In this document: piece after piece, positions 52,696 to 61,486 of the stretch
How the letters are laid out: each line of letters opens with the position of its first letter
Position numbering within the stretch: position 1 is the first letter of the stretch
Source: Inhella inkyongensis
Lineage (GTDB): Bacteria; Pseudomonadota; Gammaproteobacteria; Burkholderiales; Burkholderiaceae_C
Direction: 5' to 3'
Assembly (NCBI RefSeq): GCF_005952805.1
Contig: NZ_CP040709.1
Span: forward strand, 2,294,001 to 2,358,000
DNA: 64,000 bases
Notes under the pieces: model-generated
The model's input: only the letters and a program-made list of their open reading frames with translations
Databases searched by the model: none
Told to the model about the DNA's origin: nothing
Translations under genes and position numbers: made by a program

Positions 52696-53571
52696 TCAAG
52701 CCCCCGCATATTCCTCATCGGGGCAAACCACCAGCGGCCAGTCCTGCGCGTGCGCCAGCGCCAGCAGGGCGGCCTTCGATTGGCCGGCCATCCAAGTACG
52801 CAATGCGACATGGGTGGCCGGTCGCATCCAGTCGGCCGGCGAGCGCAGCATCAGGCCCGCCGCGGCGGCCAGACGCTGCGCGAAATGGGGCTCCAGGGCC
52901 GCCACCGCCACACGGCCATCGGCACAGGCATAGACGGCGTAGCCGGCATGCCCCCCACCCAGCAGCCCCCCCGGGGCCGTCAGGCCCCAACGCAGGGGCT
53001 GTGCGGCGAACTCGGCGGCCTCGCCCAGGCTGACGGTCAGACAGCGCGGCCGGCGGCCCTGCGCGCGGCCCAGCGCCGCTTCGAACACCGCCTGCACCGC
53101 CATCTGGGCGCCGCCCAGATCGGCCAGCAGGCTGGTGGGCATCTGCAGGCCCTGCACCAGGCCCTGCTCGGCCTGGTAGCAGAGGTCGTGACCGGACTCC
53201 TCGGCCCGCACACCCGCCGCCCCCACGATGCGCACCTGCCAAAGCCCCGGGTGTTCGCGCCGCAATGCCGCCCAACTCAGCCCCAGACGCCGCAAGGCGC
53301 TGGGGCGAAACGAGGTGAGCAGCACATCGGCTCGCGCCAACTCCCGCGCCAGCGCCCGCTGGCCGGCGGCCGACTTCAGGTCGAGGGCTAGAACCCGGAC
53401 GCCCCGGTGCAGGGACGCGTAAAGGGCGAGCTGCACCCGCGCCACCAAATCGCCGTCGGGCGGCTCCACCTTGCACGCCTTTGCACCCAGTTGCACACAG
53501 CGCTGCAAGGCCAGCGGCGCAGGCAGGTTCAGGCCCAGACTCAGCAGACGCAGGCCGCGCAGCGCCGCCAT
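52696..53571 (-). CDS. Short CaiB/BaiF (class III) CoA-transferase family protein
   Basis: 291 residues, about 90-110 shorter than usual family members. LLSLGLNLPAPLALQRCVQLGAKACKVEPP is the family N-terminus, ALDLKS and DVLLTSFRPSALRRLGL follow, and GHDLCYQAEQGL carries the Asp expected to bind CoA as in alpha-methylacyl-CoA racemase. The C-terminal closing helices are cut short. It may be an acyl-CoA racemase or transferase of unknown substrate. It begins 4 bases after the PEP-CTERM gene stop. Confidence 0.75.
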   Translation of the reverse strand: MAALRGLRLLSLGLNLPAPLALQRCVQLGAKACKVEPPDGDLVARVQLALYASLHRGVRVLALDLKSAAGQRALARELARADVLLTSFRPSALRRLGLSWAALRREHPGLWQVRIVGAAGVRAEESGHDLCYQAEQGLVQGLQMPTSLLADLGGAQMAVQAVFEAALGRAQGRRPRCLTVSLGEAAEFAAQPLRWGLTAPGGLLGGGHAGYAVYACADGRVAVAALEPHFAQRLAAAAGLMLRSPADWMRPATHVALRTWMAGQSKAALLALAHAQDWPLVVCPDEEYAGA

Positions 53572-56654: not shown

Positions 56655-56723
56655 CGCTAACGTTTGCGGTAAGCGGACCAGCCAGCGTAGCTGGCGCAGG
56701 TCCGTTTGACCAAAAGGTTATAC
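56655..56723 (-). repeat. attC site 1 (after the Imm33 cassette)
   Basis: 69 bp. R'' GTATAAC (56717-56723) and R' GTTAGCG (56655-56661). The inner arms GCGGACCAGCCAGC / GCTGGCGCAGGTCCG fold into a long imperfect stem with unpaired bases. R'' contains the TAA stop of the Imm33 gene. Confidence 0.8.
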
Positions 56724-57065
56724 GTCATCGTCATGCGGCTGGTCGTCCACGACAAACTCGTCAGAGGCCGTTCTTGCAAAGGCCGATCCACAAGGCGCAG
56801 ACAAAAGGGCAACGATGCCCTGGTCATAGTTCGCGATGGTGTTGACGTCGTAGATCTGCAAGTTATTGGAATCGTCCAAGTACTCCTGGCTCTCATTACC
56901 AGACAAGAAGCGCCAGCCGCTGTCAACGTCGTTGTCCGGCTCTTCACGGTACATGAAACCAACCTTCTGCCCGTCGACCGTGATGTGATCGGACGCATAG
57001 CATGCGCCGTGTCCGGGAGCGATTTCTCGAATCTCGTCCGCCCGCAAAAGGAACTTCGTGCTCAT
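56718..57065 (-). CDS. Imm33 (DUF2185)-family immunity-type protein, cassette-borne
   Basis: 115 residues, acidic, soluble. SGWRFLSGNESQEYL and NLQIYDVNTIANYDQGIVALL match the DUF2185/Imm33 family, proteins found beside polymorphic toxins and in phage or integron accessory DNA. No toxin gene is next to it, so it may protect against a neighbour's toxin. Its TAA stop is inside the attC R'' box, and its ATG lies 22 bases after the 5' cassette boundary GTTATAC. Confidence 0.75.
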   Translation of the reverse strand: MSTKFLLRADEIREIAPGHGACYASDHITVDGQKVGFMYREEPDNDVDSGWRFLSGNESQEYLDDSNNLQIYDVNTIANYDQGIVALLSAPCGSAFARTASDEFVVDDQPHDDDV

Positions 57066-57086
57066 GCCGAGAACCTTCCGTGAGAC

Positions 57087-57093
57087 GTATAAC
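57087..57093 (-). repeat. R' core of the attC upstream of the Imm33 cassette, cut off by the IS element
   Basis: GTTATAC, the exact complement of the R'' box GTATAAC of the same cassette. The rest of this attC is separated from it by the IS110-type element; 10 bases including part of this core are repeated at the far side (58464-58473). Confidence 0.65.
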
Positions 57094-57100
57094 GAATGAA

Positions 57101-57203
57101 AGGGACTTCCCCGTCCCGAGCTACCCGCACAGAGCGGGATACGGCAACGAGTGCCACGATGGGGTTGCGAAATCTCATCAACTCACTCTGAAAGGGGAAG
57201 TCC
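57101..57203 (+). promoter_or_regulatory. Inverted repeat spanning the IS left end and the transposase ribosome-binding site
   Basis: GGACTTCCCC (57101-57110) and GGGGAAGTCC (57194-57203) are perfect 10-base complements; the second abuts the transposase ATG and contains its purine-rich binding site. A transcript entering from outside would fold and hide the start, whereas a transcript starting inside would not. Confidence 0.5.
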
Positions 57204-58315
57204 ATGAGCATTGTGTGCGTTGGCATCGACCTGGCGAAGAATGCTGAGCCCGGACAGGGAATGTCCCGAGGACATTCCCTGCCTGGCGAAGAGCCGGGCC
57301 GCTGGCCCGGTGCGGCCTGCAAGGCTTTGCCCTGCATGGGGTGGATGAGGTGGGCAAGCCCGGGCTGCTGCGGCCTGCGGTGCCCCGCGCCACGCTCTTG
57401 AAGTCCATTGCAGCGCTGCCGCCTTGCTTGATCGCGATGGAAGCCTGCTCGGGTGCACACCACTGGGCTCGTGCGTTTCAAGCCCTGGGCCACACCGTCA
57501 AGCTCATCGCCCCGAAGTTCGTCATCCCGTACCGGTTGTCGGGCAAGCGTGGCAAGAACGATGCGGCCGACGCAGCGGCCATCTGCGAAGCCGCCCAGCG
57601 CCCCAGCATGCGCTTCGTGCCCATCAAAAGCCTGGAGCAACAAGGCCAGCTCTGCCTGCACCGGGTGCGTCAAGGCTTCATCGAGCAGCGCACCGCGCTG
57701 ATCAACCGCATTCGTGGCCTGCTCAGCGAGTTCGGCATCGTCTTGCCCTTGAAGGCCGCCACCGTGCGCCGCCAAGCCTTGCTGCACCTGGAAGACCTGC
57801 CCGGTTGGGCCAACCTTGCTGTGGGCGACTGCCTGAGTGAGGTGAGCCGACTGGACGAGCGCATTGCCGAGTACGACCGCCATCTGGCGCAGATCGCGCG
57901 CCAGAGCGAGGCCGCGCAGCGCCTGATGCGCCTGTCGGGCATCGGCGCCACCACGGCCACGGCGCTCATGGCCACGATGGGCAACGGCCATGACTTCAAG
58001 AGTGGCCGCCAATTCACCGCGTGGCTGGGCCTGACGCCGGGCCAATACAGCTCGGGCGGCAAGACGAGGCTGGGGCGCATCACCAAAGCGGGAGACGCCT
58101 ATCTGCGCAGCCTCCTGGTGCTGGGCGCCCGCGCCGTGCTGGCGGCGGCCAAGAACAAGAGCGATCCCATCAGCCGCTGGGCCGTGGCCGTAGAAGAGCG
58201 GCGCGGCTATTGGAAGGCGGTGGTGGCCATGGCGGCCAAGAACGCCCGCCTGGCCTGGGCCGTGCTGGCCAAGGGCGAGAGCTTCAAGCTGCCAGGGCAA
58301 GGCGCAGCAGCTTGA
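57204..58315 (+). pseudogene. IS110-family transposase, interrupted after codon 13
   Basis: The ATG at 57204 opens MSIVCVGIDLAKN, the first Asp motif of the RuvC-like DEDD domain. The frame is then lost in an 80-bp insert. It resumes at 57324 in another frame as FALHGVDEVGKPGLLRPAVP and runs 324 codons from a GTG at 57341 to 58315. APKFVIPYRLSGKRGKNDAADAAAI, LSGIGATTATALMATMG and GLTPGQYSSGGKTRLGRITKAGDAYLR are the expected family blocks. Without the insert the two parts join in frame. As it stands no full transposase can be made by normal decoding. Confidence 0.85.
57244..57323 (+). repeat. 80-bp double-hairpin insert within the transposase gene
   Basis: The first hairpin has 12-bp perfect arms: CAGGGAATGTCC, CGA, GGACATTCCCTG. 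The second is CCGGGCC, GCT, GGCCCGG. Removing these 80 bases restores one continuous transposase reading frame (KN-G-FALHGVDE). GCT occurs at both edges (57243-57245 and 57324-57326), a possible short target duplication. It looks like a small palindromic mobile unit; no second copy is in the window. Confidence 0.6.
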
Positions 58316-58682
58316 CGCTCTGGCTGACCCCGCAAACCCTCTACCAGGAGAGCGCAAAAACTCAATTCTTCCGCCGCGTGACCGGCACGTCGTTGATGAG
58401 CAAAGGTTGGACCTGTGCGGGGTGTTTCTGATGAATTCTGGGGAGCGGGCAACCGGCTCCGACTAACGAATGAGAACCCCCGCGCGCGTCTTCACATCAG
58501 GGTCCGCAGCACCAACGAGCTGCACGAATGACCGTTTGTAGTAACCCCAGTCCGCGATTGCTCAAACCTCAACGTCGAAACCCGAAAACGCGCCGGATCA
58601 AAGACCGCAATTCCCCTTGATGAATGGCTGCGCCATTCATCAGGGCTGGATATTGCTTGCAATCAGCGGGGAAGCCCTTGTA
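58316..58682. other. Gene-free stretch: IS right end, attC remnant and ORF-less segment
   Basis: Bases 58316-58463 are the IS right noncoding part, a possible bridge-RNA gene. Bases 58464-58473 are the second copy of TAACGAATGA. Bases 58474-58682 hold no credible gene on either strand. They contain one clean hairpin, TGATGAATGGC-TGC-GCCATTCATCA (58618-58642). They may be an ORF-less cassette or the remains of one whose attC has decayed. Confidence 0.5.
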
Positions 58683-58744
58683 GTTTGAATTCAGCGGACA
58701 AGCCAGCATAGCTGGCGCAGGTCCGCTGCAATGAAGGGTTAAAG
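58683..58744 (-). repeat. attC site 3, with a lost or altered R' box
   Basis: R'' CTTTAAC (58738-58744) and the arms GCGGACAAGCCAGC / GCTGGCGCAGGTCCGC are nearly identical to site 5. Where R' should follow GAATTCAAAC, the sequence reads TACAAGG instead of GTTAGRC, so the site looks inactive at that side. Confidence 0.7.
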
Positions 58745-58754
58745 CGCAAGAGGC

Positions 58755-59192
58755 TCACCAAAACTTCCACCATGGACGGTCGACTGCCTTACTGTTCGCT
58801 CCAGTCACTTCTGCATGCTTAGAGGCAAATTCAATCATTCCAGGGATTGCCGTGAAAAGGCCGAGTACAGAATCACCGTCTTGATTGGCGAGTTGCTTCT
58901 CGACCTTGCTAAACGGAAACACTGATAAGCCCTCATTGATCTTGACCTGCCAGCCGTGCACTGGATCTTGAACCCACTTGCCGCCATATGTCTGGCGAAT
59001 GCACTCCCCCAGGAATGAACCTAAGGTATTCGGGAGTTTTTCTTTTACATCTGGGCTGGCGCGCTCTCGCTGACCGTCTATGTATTTGTCGAGCCAGCGC
59101 ACTCCGACTTCGTTGTATTGAACAGCTGTATCAAGCTGCTCCGCCGCCACCTTGCGAACCAGTTCGGCGTTGGCGAGGATATGTTGCTCCAT
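58755..59192 (-). CDS. Cassette-borne protein of unknown function
   Basis: 145 residues, soluble. NTLGSFLGECIRQTYGGKWV and the later GLSVFPFSKVEKQLANQDGDSVLGLF resemble a widespread family of small uncharacterised proteins with the pattern LG-x-x-LGE-x-GGKW; I cannot name a function. The gene is bounded by GTTAAAG 9 bases before the ATG and by R'' CTTTAAC 10 bases after the stop, so it is one complete cassette. Confidence 0.7.
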   Translation of the reverse strand: MEQHILANAELVRKVAAEQLDTAVQYNEVGVRWLDKYIDGQRERASPDVKEKLPNTLGSFLGECIRQTYGGKWVQDPVHGWQVKINEGLSVFPFSKVEKQLANQDGDSVLGLFTAIPGMIEFASKHAEVTGANSKAVDRPWWKFW

Positions 59193-59200
59193 TGAATGCG

Positions 59201-59263
59201 CTTTAACGTAAAGTTAACCGGCGGCGCGCTTTTGCGCCGTCCGGGTTGAACGCAGGGTTAGAC
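59201..59263 (-). repeat. attC site 4
   Basis: 63 bp. R'' GTCTAAC (59257-59263) and R' GTTAAAG (59201-59207). The core is CCGGACGGCGC-AAAA-GCGCGCCGCCGG, a different stem from sites 1, 3 and 5. Confidence 0.8.
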
Positions 59264-59265
59264 AC

Positions 59266-59955
59266 TCAACGGCCCGTATTCTCACAGTCAATTTGCTTGA
59301 GGACAAACTCTGTAGAGTCATGCACCTTTACCGAAACAGTTGTTTTGTCGCGCTTAGCCACAATTGATAAACGCACATTAAGATACCGATCACCATATTT
59401 GAGGTAATAGAACCCAGAAACACCTGCAAAGCGGATTCTTGCACCAAGGCGTGTGGTTCTTAGGAACGTCCCGTATGCGCCGTCTCGATTCGGAAAGTCT
59501 AAATAATTAATCCATTTCTTTCTTGGCAAAAAAAGGATGCTCTCAACGAATACCTCACCGTCATCCAAAGTTCCTTCTTTAGCAACAAAACAAAATTCAT
59601 AGCTTGGAGGATACCGATCATTCGAGTTGTAATTGATTGAAGCTAGCCCTGTGTGCTCACAGGCATAATGATCTCCATATGCGTTTCTATACGTTCTTAA
59701 GATTGCGGGATCGTAATAAAAGGAACTGCTTGTTGGGCGCAAAAGTTTCTTACTTAGCCCTTCAAGTCCCAGTTCCTTAATATCTAAAATATTTCCGAAT
59801 TGATTTAATACTCGGACAAAGTCTGCATTCTGTTCATATGAGGCACTCGGGGCCGAGAAATTACATGCGCGTGCTTCAGTGCCATTAGCCAACGTAGTAA
59901 AACTGGTTGTGGCAATTAGTGCCAATAGTGCATGAAGAAGTCTCGCCGAGTGCAT
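59266..59955 (-). CDS. Cassette-borne exported protein of unknown function
   Basis: 229 residues, from an AT-rich gene unlike the host genes. A signal peptide covers about 1-23 (LLHALLALIATTSFTTLANG). The mature part is rich in Tyr, Asn and Phe, has five Cys and no recognised domain (SYEFCFVAKEGTLDDGEVFVESILFLP is its most regular stretch). It starts 2 bases after the R' box GTTAGAC and its TGA lies 2 bases before R'' GTCTAAC. It is a probable periplasmic or secreted protein. Confidence 0.75.
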   Translation of the reverse strand: MHSARLLHALLALIATTSFTTLANGTEARACNFSAPSASYEQNADFVRVLNQFGNILDIKELGLEGLSKKLLRPTSSSFYYDPAILRTYRNAYGDHYACEHTGLASINYNSNDRYPPSYEFCFVAKEGTLDDGEVFVESILFLPRKKWINYLDFPNRDGAYGTFLRTTRLGARIRFAGVSGFYYLKYGDRYLNVRLSIVAKRDKTTVSVKVHDSTEFVLKQIDCENTGR

Positions 59956-59957
59956 AT

Positions 59958-60026
59958 GTCTAACGTTTGAATTCAGCGGACAAGCCAGCGCAGCTGACGC
60001 AGGTCCGCTGCAATGAAAGGTTATGC
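59958..60026 (-). repeat. attC site 5
   Basis: 69 bp. R'' GCATAAC (60020-60026) and R' GTTAGAC (59958-59964). The L boxes are CAGCGGA / TCCGCTG, with the inner arms TGCGTCAGCTG / GCGCTGGCTTG. It is the most regular attC of the set. Confidence 0.88.
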
Positions 60027-60491
60027 ATCTTTCAAGACAAAGTGGGCTTGAAGGCTGACAGTGGATTTCTTCGTGTTGAACTCGATTGAGCCAAGTGACT
60101 TGTAGAAATTTTCGAGAAGTTCCTGCTGCACATTTCCTTGAAAAGACATTTTGAAGTTTGGCTTTCCGGATTTCGCGAGCTCAATTTGAAGCAGTATTTC
60201 TCCGGCCTCCTTGTGGTGGGCGGCATGCTGAGCAAGTACTTCATGGATGTATCCAATCAGTTTTGCAAGCTCTTTGGCCGTAGTATTCATCTCGAAATCA
60301 GACTGACTACTAAGCAGTCGTATTCCGGAGTTAACTACTCTTCCCTTCTTGTTGTCGACACCATTCGCAGGAACGTAGGTCTTCCAATCGGCGATATATA
60401 CAGCGCCATCAACCGGGTTTCGGTAGGGTTCAGCTGCGTTCACTGGCCCGAGTGCCAATGCCATGACGAACAAAATTGGAAGGCTCTTCAT
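60021..60491 (-). CDS. Cassette-borne exported protein of unknown function
   Basis: 156 residues from the ATG at 60491, giving the signal peptide MKSLPILFVMALALGPVNAA; the open frame upstream runs through attC site 6 and is not expected to be translated. The mature part has YRNPVDGAVYIADWKTYVPANG and an Ala/Glu/His-rich helical region. No family recognised. The TAA stop lies inside R'' of site 5. Confidence 0.75.
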   Translation of the reverse strand: MKSLPILFVMALALGPVNAAEPYRNPVDGAVYIADWKTYVPANGVDNKKGRVVNSGIRLLSSQSDFEMNTTAKELAKLIGYIHEVLAQHAAHHKEAGEILLQIELAKSGKPNFKMSFQGNVQQELLENFYKSLGSIEFNTKKSTVSLQAHFVLKDA

Positions 60492-60504
60492 GTGGCGCTT
60501 AGAT

Positions 60505-60573
60505 GCATAACGTTGGAGTTCAGCCGACCGGACGGCGCAGCCGGCCAGGGTCGGCTGCAACGACAGGTTAGAC
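60505..60573 (-). repeat. attC site 6
   Basis: 69 bp. R'' GTCTAAC (60567-60573) and R' GTTATGC (60505-60511). L boxes GCAGCCGACC / GGTCGGCTG with the centre CTGGCCGGCTGCGCCGTCC. Confidence 0.85.
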
Positions 60574-60577
60574 GTCT

Positions 60578-60856
60578 TCACCGCACAAGCTCCATGTCCT
60601 GTGGGTCAAGTGCTAGCGAATGCGAAGTGGATTGGCCTTCTCCTTCGTGCCACCACTTTTCGACCCACGCGCGACCCCATTGATCCACTTCGTAGACCTC
60701 TAGTACTTCGCCGAGCATCGATTGAATACGCGGCACTTCTTCCCGCTCAGTATTTACGAATACTTCTGGATCGATTGTGAGCACGCGCACAAACGATCCA
60801 ACGCCGACAGATCGGCCGCTTCGATCCAGCGTAGTAATTGAGACGCTCTCGCTCAT
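60578..60856 (-). CDS. Cassette-borne small acidic protein of unknown function
   Basis: 92 residues, acidic, probably all-beta and SH3-like. VGVGSFVRVLTIDP, IQSMLGEVLEVYEVDQWGRAWVEKWW and HSLALDPQDMELV are well-structured segments of a type I have seen only as hypothetical protein. The gene is bounded by GTTAGAC 3 bases before the ATG and GTCTAAC 4 bases after the stop, so it is one complete cassette and the first of the array in transcription order. Confidence 0.72.
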   Translation of the reverse strand: MSESVSITTLDRSGRSVGVGSFVRVLTIDPEVFVNTEREEVPRIQSMLGEVLEVYEVDQWGRAWVEKWWHEGEGQSTSHSLALDPQDMELVR

Positions 60857-60859
60857 GAC

Positions 60860-60866
60860 GTCTAAC
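60860..60866 (-). repeat. R' box at the start of the array (attC or attI remnant)
   Basis: GTTAGAC, complementary to R'' of the first cassette. The sequence on its far side (palindrome GGACCGCGGTCC at 60875-60886, and AAGTAGCT/AGCCACTT) does not form a normal attC. It could be the residue of an attI or of a truncated attC. Confidence 0.5.
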
Positions 60867-60925
60867 GTGTTATGGACCGCGGTCCGAAGTAGCTACATCT
60901 AGCCACTTGTTGATGAATACCGTCA

Positions 60926-60962
60926 AAAGTTGATAGATACGAATGCTGCATCTATCAACTTT
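60926..60962. repeat. Inverted repeat with 13-bp perfect arms
   Basis: AAAGTTGATAGAT and ATCTATCAACTTT with an 11-base spacer. It covers the stop codon of the minus-strand gene to its right. On the minus strand it is followed by TGACGG, not a U-run, so it is a poor terminator. It may be the end of a mobile element or a recombination site at the edge of the array. Confidence 0.55.
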
Positions 60963-61341
60963 CTTCGACGATCCGGCTGCCCAGCTTCATCCGCAGGGCC
61001 TCGCGTTTGGAGATGCGCCAGAGCTTGGCTGCGGGGTCCCAGCGGGCGCCGGCGGCGCGAGCTGCGGCTTGCAGATCGCGCTCCAGCACACCAATGCGCA
61101 AGCCCACCTCGCGGGTGGCGCGGGCGGCCACCGGGGCGCTGTCCACCAAAAGCTCCACGGTGGTGTAGCGCGTGGCGCCGTCGGCACTCAGGCGATGACG
61201 CACACACAGCAGGTCGGCGCCAAAGCGCTGCGCCCACTTGAGCGCGCCCCGGCTGGTGGGGCCGAGCTTGCGCGCCACCCGGGCGTGGGCGGCGGCGTGG
61301 CTGACTTGGCTGGCTGAAATTCGCGACGCTGGGGTTTGCAT
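60955..61341 (-). CDS. Conserved-looking hypothetical protein at the array border
   Basis: 128 residues from the ATG at 61341, chosen because GGAGG lies 5 bases upstream. It is basic and soluble, with CVRHRLSADGATRYTTVELLVD, a VGLRIGVLERDLQ segment and the end AAGARWDPAAKLWRISKREALRMKLGSRIV. I do not recognise the family. Its base composition is like the host. It stands where an integrase gene would be expected, but shows no recombinase motif. Confidence 0.65.
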   Translation of the reverse strand: MQTPASRISASQVSHAAAHARVARKLGPTSRGALKWAQRFGADLLCVRHRLSADGATRYTTVELLVDSAPVAARATREVGLRIGVLERDLQAAARAAGARWDPAAKLWRISKREALRMKLGSRIVEES

Positions 61342-61486
61342 GGCCGCCTCCCGGCTCGGCTGGTCTGGGCTGCCACTCCTCTGCCGGGAGCTATCAGGCA
61401 ACGTTTGAACGGCGGCAGTCTAGCGGCGTCCTTTGGCTCAGCGGCTCACCTGGGGCGCGCCTGGCGGCTCACCTGCAGGCCGAGCT

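Follow-up and report, generated by a model that had tools for sequence, protein, structure and literature searches.

An integron cassette array without its own integrase in Inhella inkyongensis: a probable orphan attI and cassettes in common with a distant integron

Integron cassette arrays without integrase (CALINs) are usually defined by at least two attC sites without an adjacent intI. Their origin is explained either by loss of the integrase or by insertion at an attG site, and it is rarely possible to distinguish between the two. Loot et al. (2024) reportedly found that attG insertion places cassettes in the chromosome away from the integron. According to PMC12444791, a functional IntI is able to mobilise CALINs in trans, and about half of Xanthomonas genomes have CALINs outside the integron locus. 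A CALIN that has its own attI was published earlier for the Shewanella prophage M16-3; PMC9892861 describes one CALIN, within the prophage, whose attI is the same as that of its integron. Here we describe an array of five cassettes (c1 to c5) in Inhella inkyongensis that opens at an attI-like leader. It lies within a window of 64 kb (2294001–2358000, part of a single 4.08-Mb contig) at window positions 56661–60866 of the minus strand and reads from 60866 to 56661; other arrays of the chromosome are named by their position in kb.

With several attC-bounded cassettes and no adjacent intI the array resembles known CALINs and is one by definition, as an earlier note on this DNA, made from the letters alone, had proposed. 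It differs from known CALINs in that it opens at a duplicated attI-like leader, probably an orphan attI, and in that three of the cassettes of this outpost are present a second time in a resident integron, the junctions being base-exact. In comparison to M16-3, several chromosomal intI-less arrays are found here, with leaders of at least three types and in several species of one genus. Cassettes in the chromosome away from the integron are likewise seen after attG insertion; attG sites are scattered and do not resemble attI, whereas here a leader of about 100 nt occurs twice and there are further leaders that agree with true attI. We regard it as likely that the array is an attI-like platform without its own integrase, stocked in trans by a resident IntI, most likely that of the integron at 785 kb (or that at 2207 kb). 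An IntI acting in trans would insert or exchange cassettes at the platform by the normal G|TT crossover, attC x attI or attC x attC, its source most likely being the intact 785-kb integron, or the 2207-kb one. The platform itself would most likely be an old integron minus its intI, one of several in the genus. In a later step an insertion sequence (IS) of the IS1111-attC type would have entered the attC of the fourth cassette.

Comparison with the 785-kb integron revealed three cassettes in common. Cassette c1 (60511–60865) differs from cassette 9 of that integron at 2 of 355 nt, c5 (56661–57092) from cassette 4 at 2 of 432 nt, and c2 (59964–60510) is identical to cassette 1 over all 547 nt (0 differences). 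In all three pairs the first mismatch stands 2–5 nt outside G|TT on both sides, i.e. the common stretches are mobile units bounded at G|TT, which in the window array falls at 60866, 60511, 59964, 59207, 57093 and 56661. In the numbering of the 785-kb integron the window order is 9, 1, two unrelated cassettes, 4. Such junctions and such an order are the trace of single-cassette movement by an integron integrase, unlike those of a segmental duplication. Because the three cassettes are near-identical in the resident integron, the window array was most likely loaded by the distant integrase; the direction of exchange, the responsible IntI and its present activity we infer. When eight arrays of the genome were compared (alignments over 110 nt), no second pair with a common cassette appeared, and the sole other alignment above this length covers 117 nt at a long attC, between the 1775-kb and 2207-kb arrays.

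Two full-length IntI are encoded in the chromosome, as determined with the TIGR02249 profile (463 and 462 bits, cut-off 265), at 2207031–2207975 and 785158–786102, each with a cassette array. The one nearer to the window array is about 143 kb off, and the whole-genome profile search gave no IntI match near the array, i.e. no intI adjoins its leader as in a complete integron. The earlier statement that no intI lies in the 7 kb up to eda therefore holds locally, but the genome itself contains two. The attC sites were searched with a covariance model (R1) built from eight attC sites of the two integrons, all outside the window and excluding those of the three common cassettes; a 111-nt attC at 2208985, found by our own scan only, was also left out. 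This first scan gave many false matches in GC-rich genes and served for picking candidates only. On the array strand (E ≤ 1), the 785-kb integron has ten attC sites by R1 and the 2207-kb one has three. R1 also finds at least six intI-less loci, the window array and those at 83–86 kb, 101 kb, 224–225 kb, 1776 kb and 3023 kb. The genome-wide search proposed in the earlier note thus yielded two intI, two integrons and five further intI-less arrays. Of the first-look candidates in this genome, 150 of 3349 were scored with R1 and 150 of 915 with the attI model R2 described below, with similar fractions in other genomes; because part of the candidates was scored, the absence of further attC or attI sites is unproved. 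The nearest named IntI are those of Hydrogenophaga, Caldimonas and Tepidimonas (69–71% identity). Upstream of both intI there are boxes which we take to be LexA boxes by their motif: CTGT-N8-ACAG twice before the 2207-kb intI (L009 10143–10158 and 10307–10322) and CTGGATGCGCATCCAG before the 785-kb intI (L010 10293–10308). They suggest that the IntI could be under SOS control.

The leader of the window array (60867–60963, minus strand), which we designate type C, ends in the core ATAACAC|GTT and folds into three hairpins (folding z −4.6). It lies directly before the TTRRRY of the first cassette, c1, which opens at the core GTT at 60866. The leader recurs with 96% identity over 102–104 nt at the intI-less 86-kb array, with a different cassette behind it, and on the outer side the similarity stops abruptly at an inverted repeat. 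A 12-nt weight matrix derived from nine intI-adjacent attI was applied to 4160 GTT triplets, and the window core is one of the six that score highest. Of these, five are array leaders (window, 86 kb, 225 kb, 100 kb and the 2207-kb attI, which is itself in the training set); the 3022-kb leader has a weak core (53 of 4160). In each of the six intI-less arrays found, the leader is similar to some other leader. The 225-kb leader matches the attI of the 2207-kb integron at 94% over 51 nt, the 1775-kb leader matches the attI of the 785-kb integron at 89% over 37 nt, and the 100-kb leader has 21 nt in common with those at 225 kb and 2207 kb. The 3022-kb leader has 29 nt in common with the one at 1775 kb, further upstream, plus the core TAAAACCAAG|TT. 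Allowing at most one mismatch, the pattern TWAAACCAAGTTRNGC occurs at three sites of the genome, all of them array starts (785-kb integron, 1775 kb and 3022 kb). R2, a sequence-only model of 67 positions built from the same nine attI, has five matches in this genome at E ≤ 1, each of them at an array. Two are at the integrons and the others at the intI-less arrays at 225, 100 and 1775 kb, so that leaders are recognised at three of the six intI-less arrays. The window leader may itself work as attI, and an IntI may act on it as well as on the cassettes.

The 3′ end of a neighbouring gene (60955–61401), whose product has a weak Pfam match to DUF5710 below the cut-off, overlaps the first bases of the leader. 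A homologue of this gene in the sister species G005 (L015) has a related leader behind it (70% over 86 nt, E 0.0024), at which point the contig ends.

Several observations weigh against the proposed platform. R2 misses the window leader even at E ≤ 10, which is the main weakness of the attI assignment, and also misses the 86-kb copy and the 3022-kb leader. By the 12-nt matrix, one unrelated GTT outscores the window core. Among 299 genomes of the family the type C leader was found in this genome only (E ≤ 0.001), and it was found in none of 48 IntI-bearing loci (E ≤ 0.01). Within 60840–61010 a simple scan gave no promoter-like site in the leader and no terminator-like site. Upstream of 14 leaders of intI-less arrays, tblastn with the two IntI as queries gave no trace of an intI (best E 0.30; up to 3 kb searched per leader, about 120 nt for two of the 14), which counts against a simple model of intI loss; the window leader was among those without a remnant within 3 kb. 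Finally, the same picture would result if these cassettes had recently been acquired from outside.

Among the alternatives, insertion at an ordinary attG fares best, although we consider it rather unlikely. In this case an IntI would have put the first cassette into a chromosomal attG, and the leader would be host sequence with an attI-like core. Such insertion is described as a route to intI-less arrays in PMC12444791 and PMC12901181, and the failure of R2 to recognise the leader as well as the missing parent integron of type C are in accordance with it. A chance attG, however, would not be expected to recur over about 100 nt at 96% before an unrelated cassette at 86 kb, nor does it explain that the other intI-less arrays of the genome open with sequences like the integrons' own attI. 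Slightly less probable is that each platform captured these cassettes for itself from an external pool, e.g. a plasmid integron, with no mutual exchange. Metagenomes are indeed rich in relatives of the c1 and c4 proteins (39 and 217 protein clusters, own included), and the cassette order is unequal between the two arrays; yet three of five cassettes with 0–2 differences would require three parallel captures, and no further pair among the eight arrays of the genome has a cassette in common. That the array is a static relic of an integron that lost intI long ago and ceased to exchange cassettes is improbable: one attC is split by an IS, one is weak and no local intI exists, but 0–2 differences per common cassette together with strong attC sites point towards recent movement. 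That a block of the 785-kb integron was transferred by segmental duplication or homologous recombination would account for the high identity of the common stretches and can practically be dismissed, as the cassettes concerned (9, 1 and 4) are single and non-collinear, each broken off at G|TT on both sides, with unrelated ones between them.

Similar arrangements occur in sister species of the genus. All six genomes contain one or two intI (E ≤ 1e-40) plus attC matches. Eleven intI-less arrays or array pieces were examined in the sister species G001, G002, G003 and G005, and R2 recognises six of their leaders (G003_C26, G003_C14, G002_C14, G002_C11, G002_C10 and G005_C23b); the R2-negative ones are G005_C23, G005_C2, G005_C18, G003_C9 and G001_C11, some of them cut by contig ends. 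The G003_C26 leader matches the integron attI of its own genome at 93–95% over 87 nt and not beyond. The leaders of G005_C2 and G005_C23 are identical over 121 nt, score as non-attI and stand at contig ends, beyond which an intI may lie. Pairwise leader comparison covered 20 leaders; G002_C10, G004, G003_C9, G001_C11 and the extra orphan attI of G001 and G005 stand outside this table.

In G001, the orphan attI L137 and L142 have 498 nt in common at 92%. Over 155 nt of its inner part, L137 agrees at 90% with the intact intI of this genome (L128), namely with its promoter and 5′ end, so that intI deletion is one source of orphan attI. With an orphan attI beside a truncated intI 5′ end, L137/L142 is a duplicated integron relic. 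The cassette start TTGAACTAAACCGC was found directly behind three attI in G005 (L147, L151 and L136, one of them with intI) and three in G001 (L137, L142 and L150), in both species near contig ends. It apparently belongs to a multi-copy first cassette of both species.

A more far-reaching view, which we put forward tentatively and consider possible rather than probable, is that in this genus attI itself is a scattered unit of about 50–120 nt which has been copied many times. One or two IntI would then fill and reshuffle, in trans, the many orphan attI platforms of several types on a chromosome, and the integron would be a genome-wide network instead of a single locus. The window leader and its 86-kb copy, alike over about 100 nt and in nothing outside, would be such a mobile attI. 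In the literature no paper was found that announces intI-less arrays with attI leaders scattered over one chromosome, which is weak evidence of novelty as subscription journals were scarcely covered. With two intI, six intI-less arrays behind attI-like leaders and three common cassettes with base-exact junctions in one chromosome, it becomes directly testable whether an IntI serves distant attI platforms in trans. An outpost of this kind could offer cassettes further first positions and other local promoters.

The attC sites were investigated in the whole window with R1. All nine matches at E ≤ 5 lie inside the array: four strong minus-strand sites (c1 85.6, c2 84.7, c5 65.0 and the left part of c4 57.8 bits; E 1.1e-14 to 3.8e-23), the short site of c3 as a weak match on the same strand (59201–59263, 14.9 bits, E 0.11), and four weaker plus-strand mirrors of array sites. 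The earlier note had described five minus-strand genes alternating with attC-like palindromes; its coordinates are right, and the absence of covariance-model matches, which it had named as grounds for abandoning its reading, did not occur. The R′ boxes of c1 to c5 are GTTAGAC, GTTATGC, GTTAGAC, GTTAAAG and GTTATAC, and every cassette has an R′′ that is exactly complementary to the R′ it carries. Exact complements had been noticed before in four cassettes; the count is five of five. When the 7-mers were swapped between cassettes, 2 of 20 pairs matched, c1 and c3 carrying the same box. Single-stranded folding of four of the five sites is stronger than that of shuffled sequences (z −3.2 to −5.1), with z −2.6 for the short c3 site. 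Random palindromes are ruled out by model matches, box complementarity and folding taken together. An Rfam search of the array returned no match, and an exact 40-nt attC pattern had no match in the genome-contig database.

Within c1 the attC (60505–60573) follows an open reading frame (ORF) at 60578–60856 for 92 aa. The ORF of c2 (60021–60491, attC 59958–60026) encodes 156 aa with a hydrophobic N-terminus. Cassette c3 (59207–59963) has an ORF at 59266–59955 for 229 aa and c4 (57093–59206) one at 58755–59192 for 145 aa. The final cassette c5 (attC 56655–56723) encodes 115 aa (56718–57065) with an Imm33 domain (E 9.5e-34); its one PDB match is due to chance. The products of c1 to c4 gave no Pfam or NCBIfam match at E ≤ 0.001, and PADLOC assigned none of six proteins (the five cassette products and the DUF5710-like one). 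Proteins of c1, c3 and c4 were searched for relatives; the search with c3 gave 9 protein clusters including its own, hence 8 relatives.

The attC of c4 is split by a plus-strand IS110/IS1111-type insertion of 1589 bp (57094–58682), which separates the left part (58683–58744) from the R′ box (57087–57093); the two boxes of this site are still exactly complementary. The transposase frame is disrupted into two pieces (57204–57401 and 57341–58315), the longer of which matches Transposase_20, DEDD_Tnp_IS110 and NF033542. According to PMC11187229, insertion at one attC end is the known habit of the IS1111-attC group, whose IS110/IS1111-type transposase and subterminal inverted repeats are likewise in accordance with the window element. 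Differences are about 84 extra nt and the disrupted frame; the grouping is one by type and position. A relative in G005 occupies the identical attC position (84% over 1361 nt plus 92% over 148 nt), and the same IS end is found behind attC in G003 and G004. The extra stretch of about 84 nt, near 57242–57325, is absent from the G005 copy and contains a strong palindrome (GGACAGGGAATGTCC / GGACATTCCCTGCCTGG); a small repeat seems to have been inserted here within the transposase. When plasmids were searched with the array, three records matched in part (1–3% of the query), the best two starting at query position 531–534, the IS end; the leader as query gave no match.

The array had been placed in a core-genome setting between mnmC and a DAO gene. 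The flanking genes are conserved, but their neighbourhood is not, because they lie on different contigs in four of five sister species and 95 kb apart in the fifth. An empty insertion site sought by means of both genes in these five species was not recovered, the genes not being neighbours. A fixed gene order across relatives, which would have spoken against a cassette array, was not seen.

Elsewhere in the window, an Rfam match to mir-9847 at 53076–53147 is almost certainly due to chance (27.6 bits against a gathering score of 74). Two tyrosine-recombinase genes with equal scores stand about 11.6 kb apart in the chromosome (G000:C1 334898–335572 and 346545–347219) and probably represent a duplicated element.

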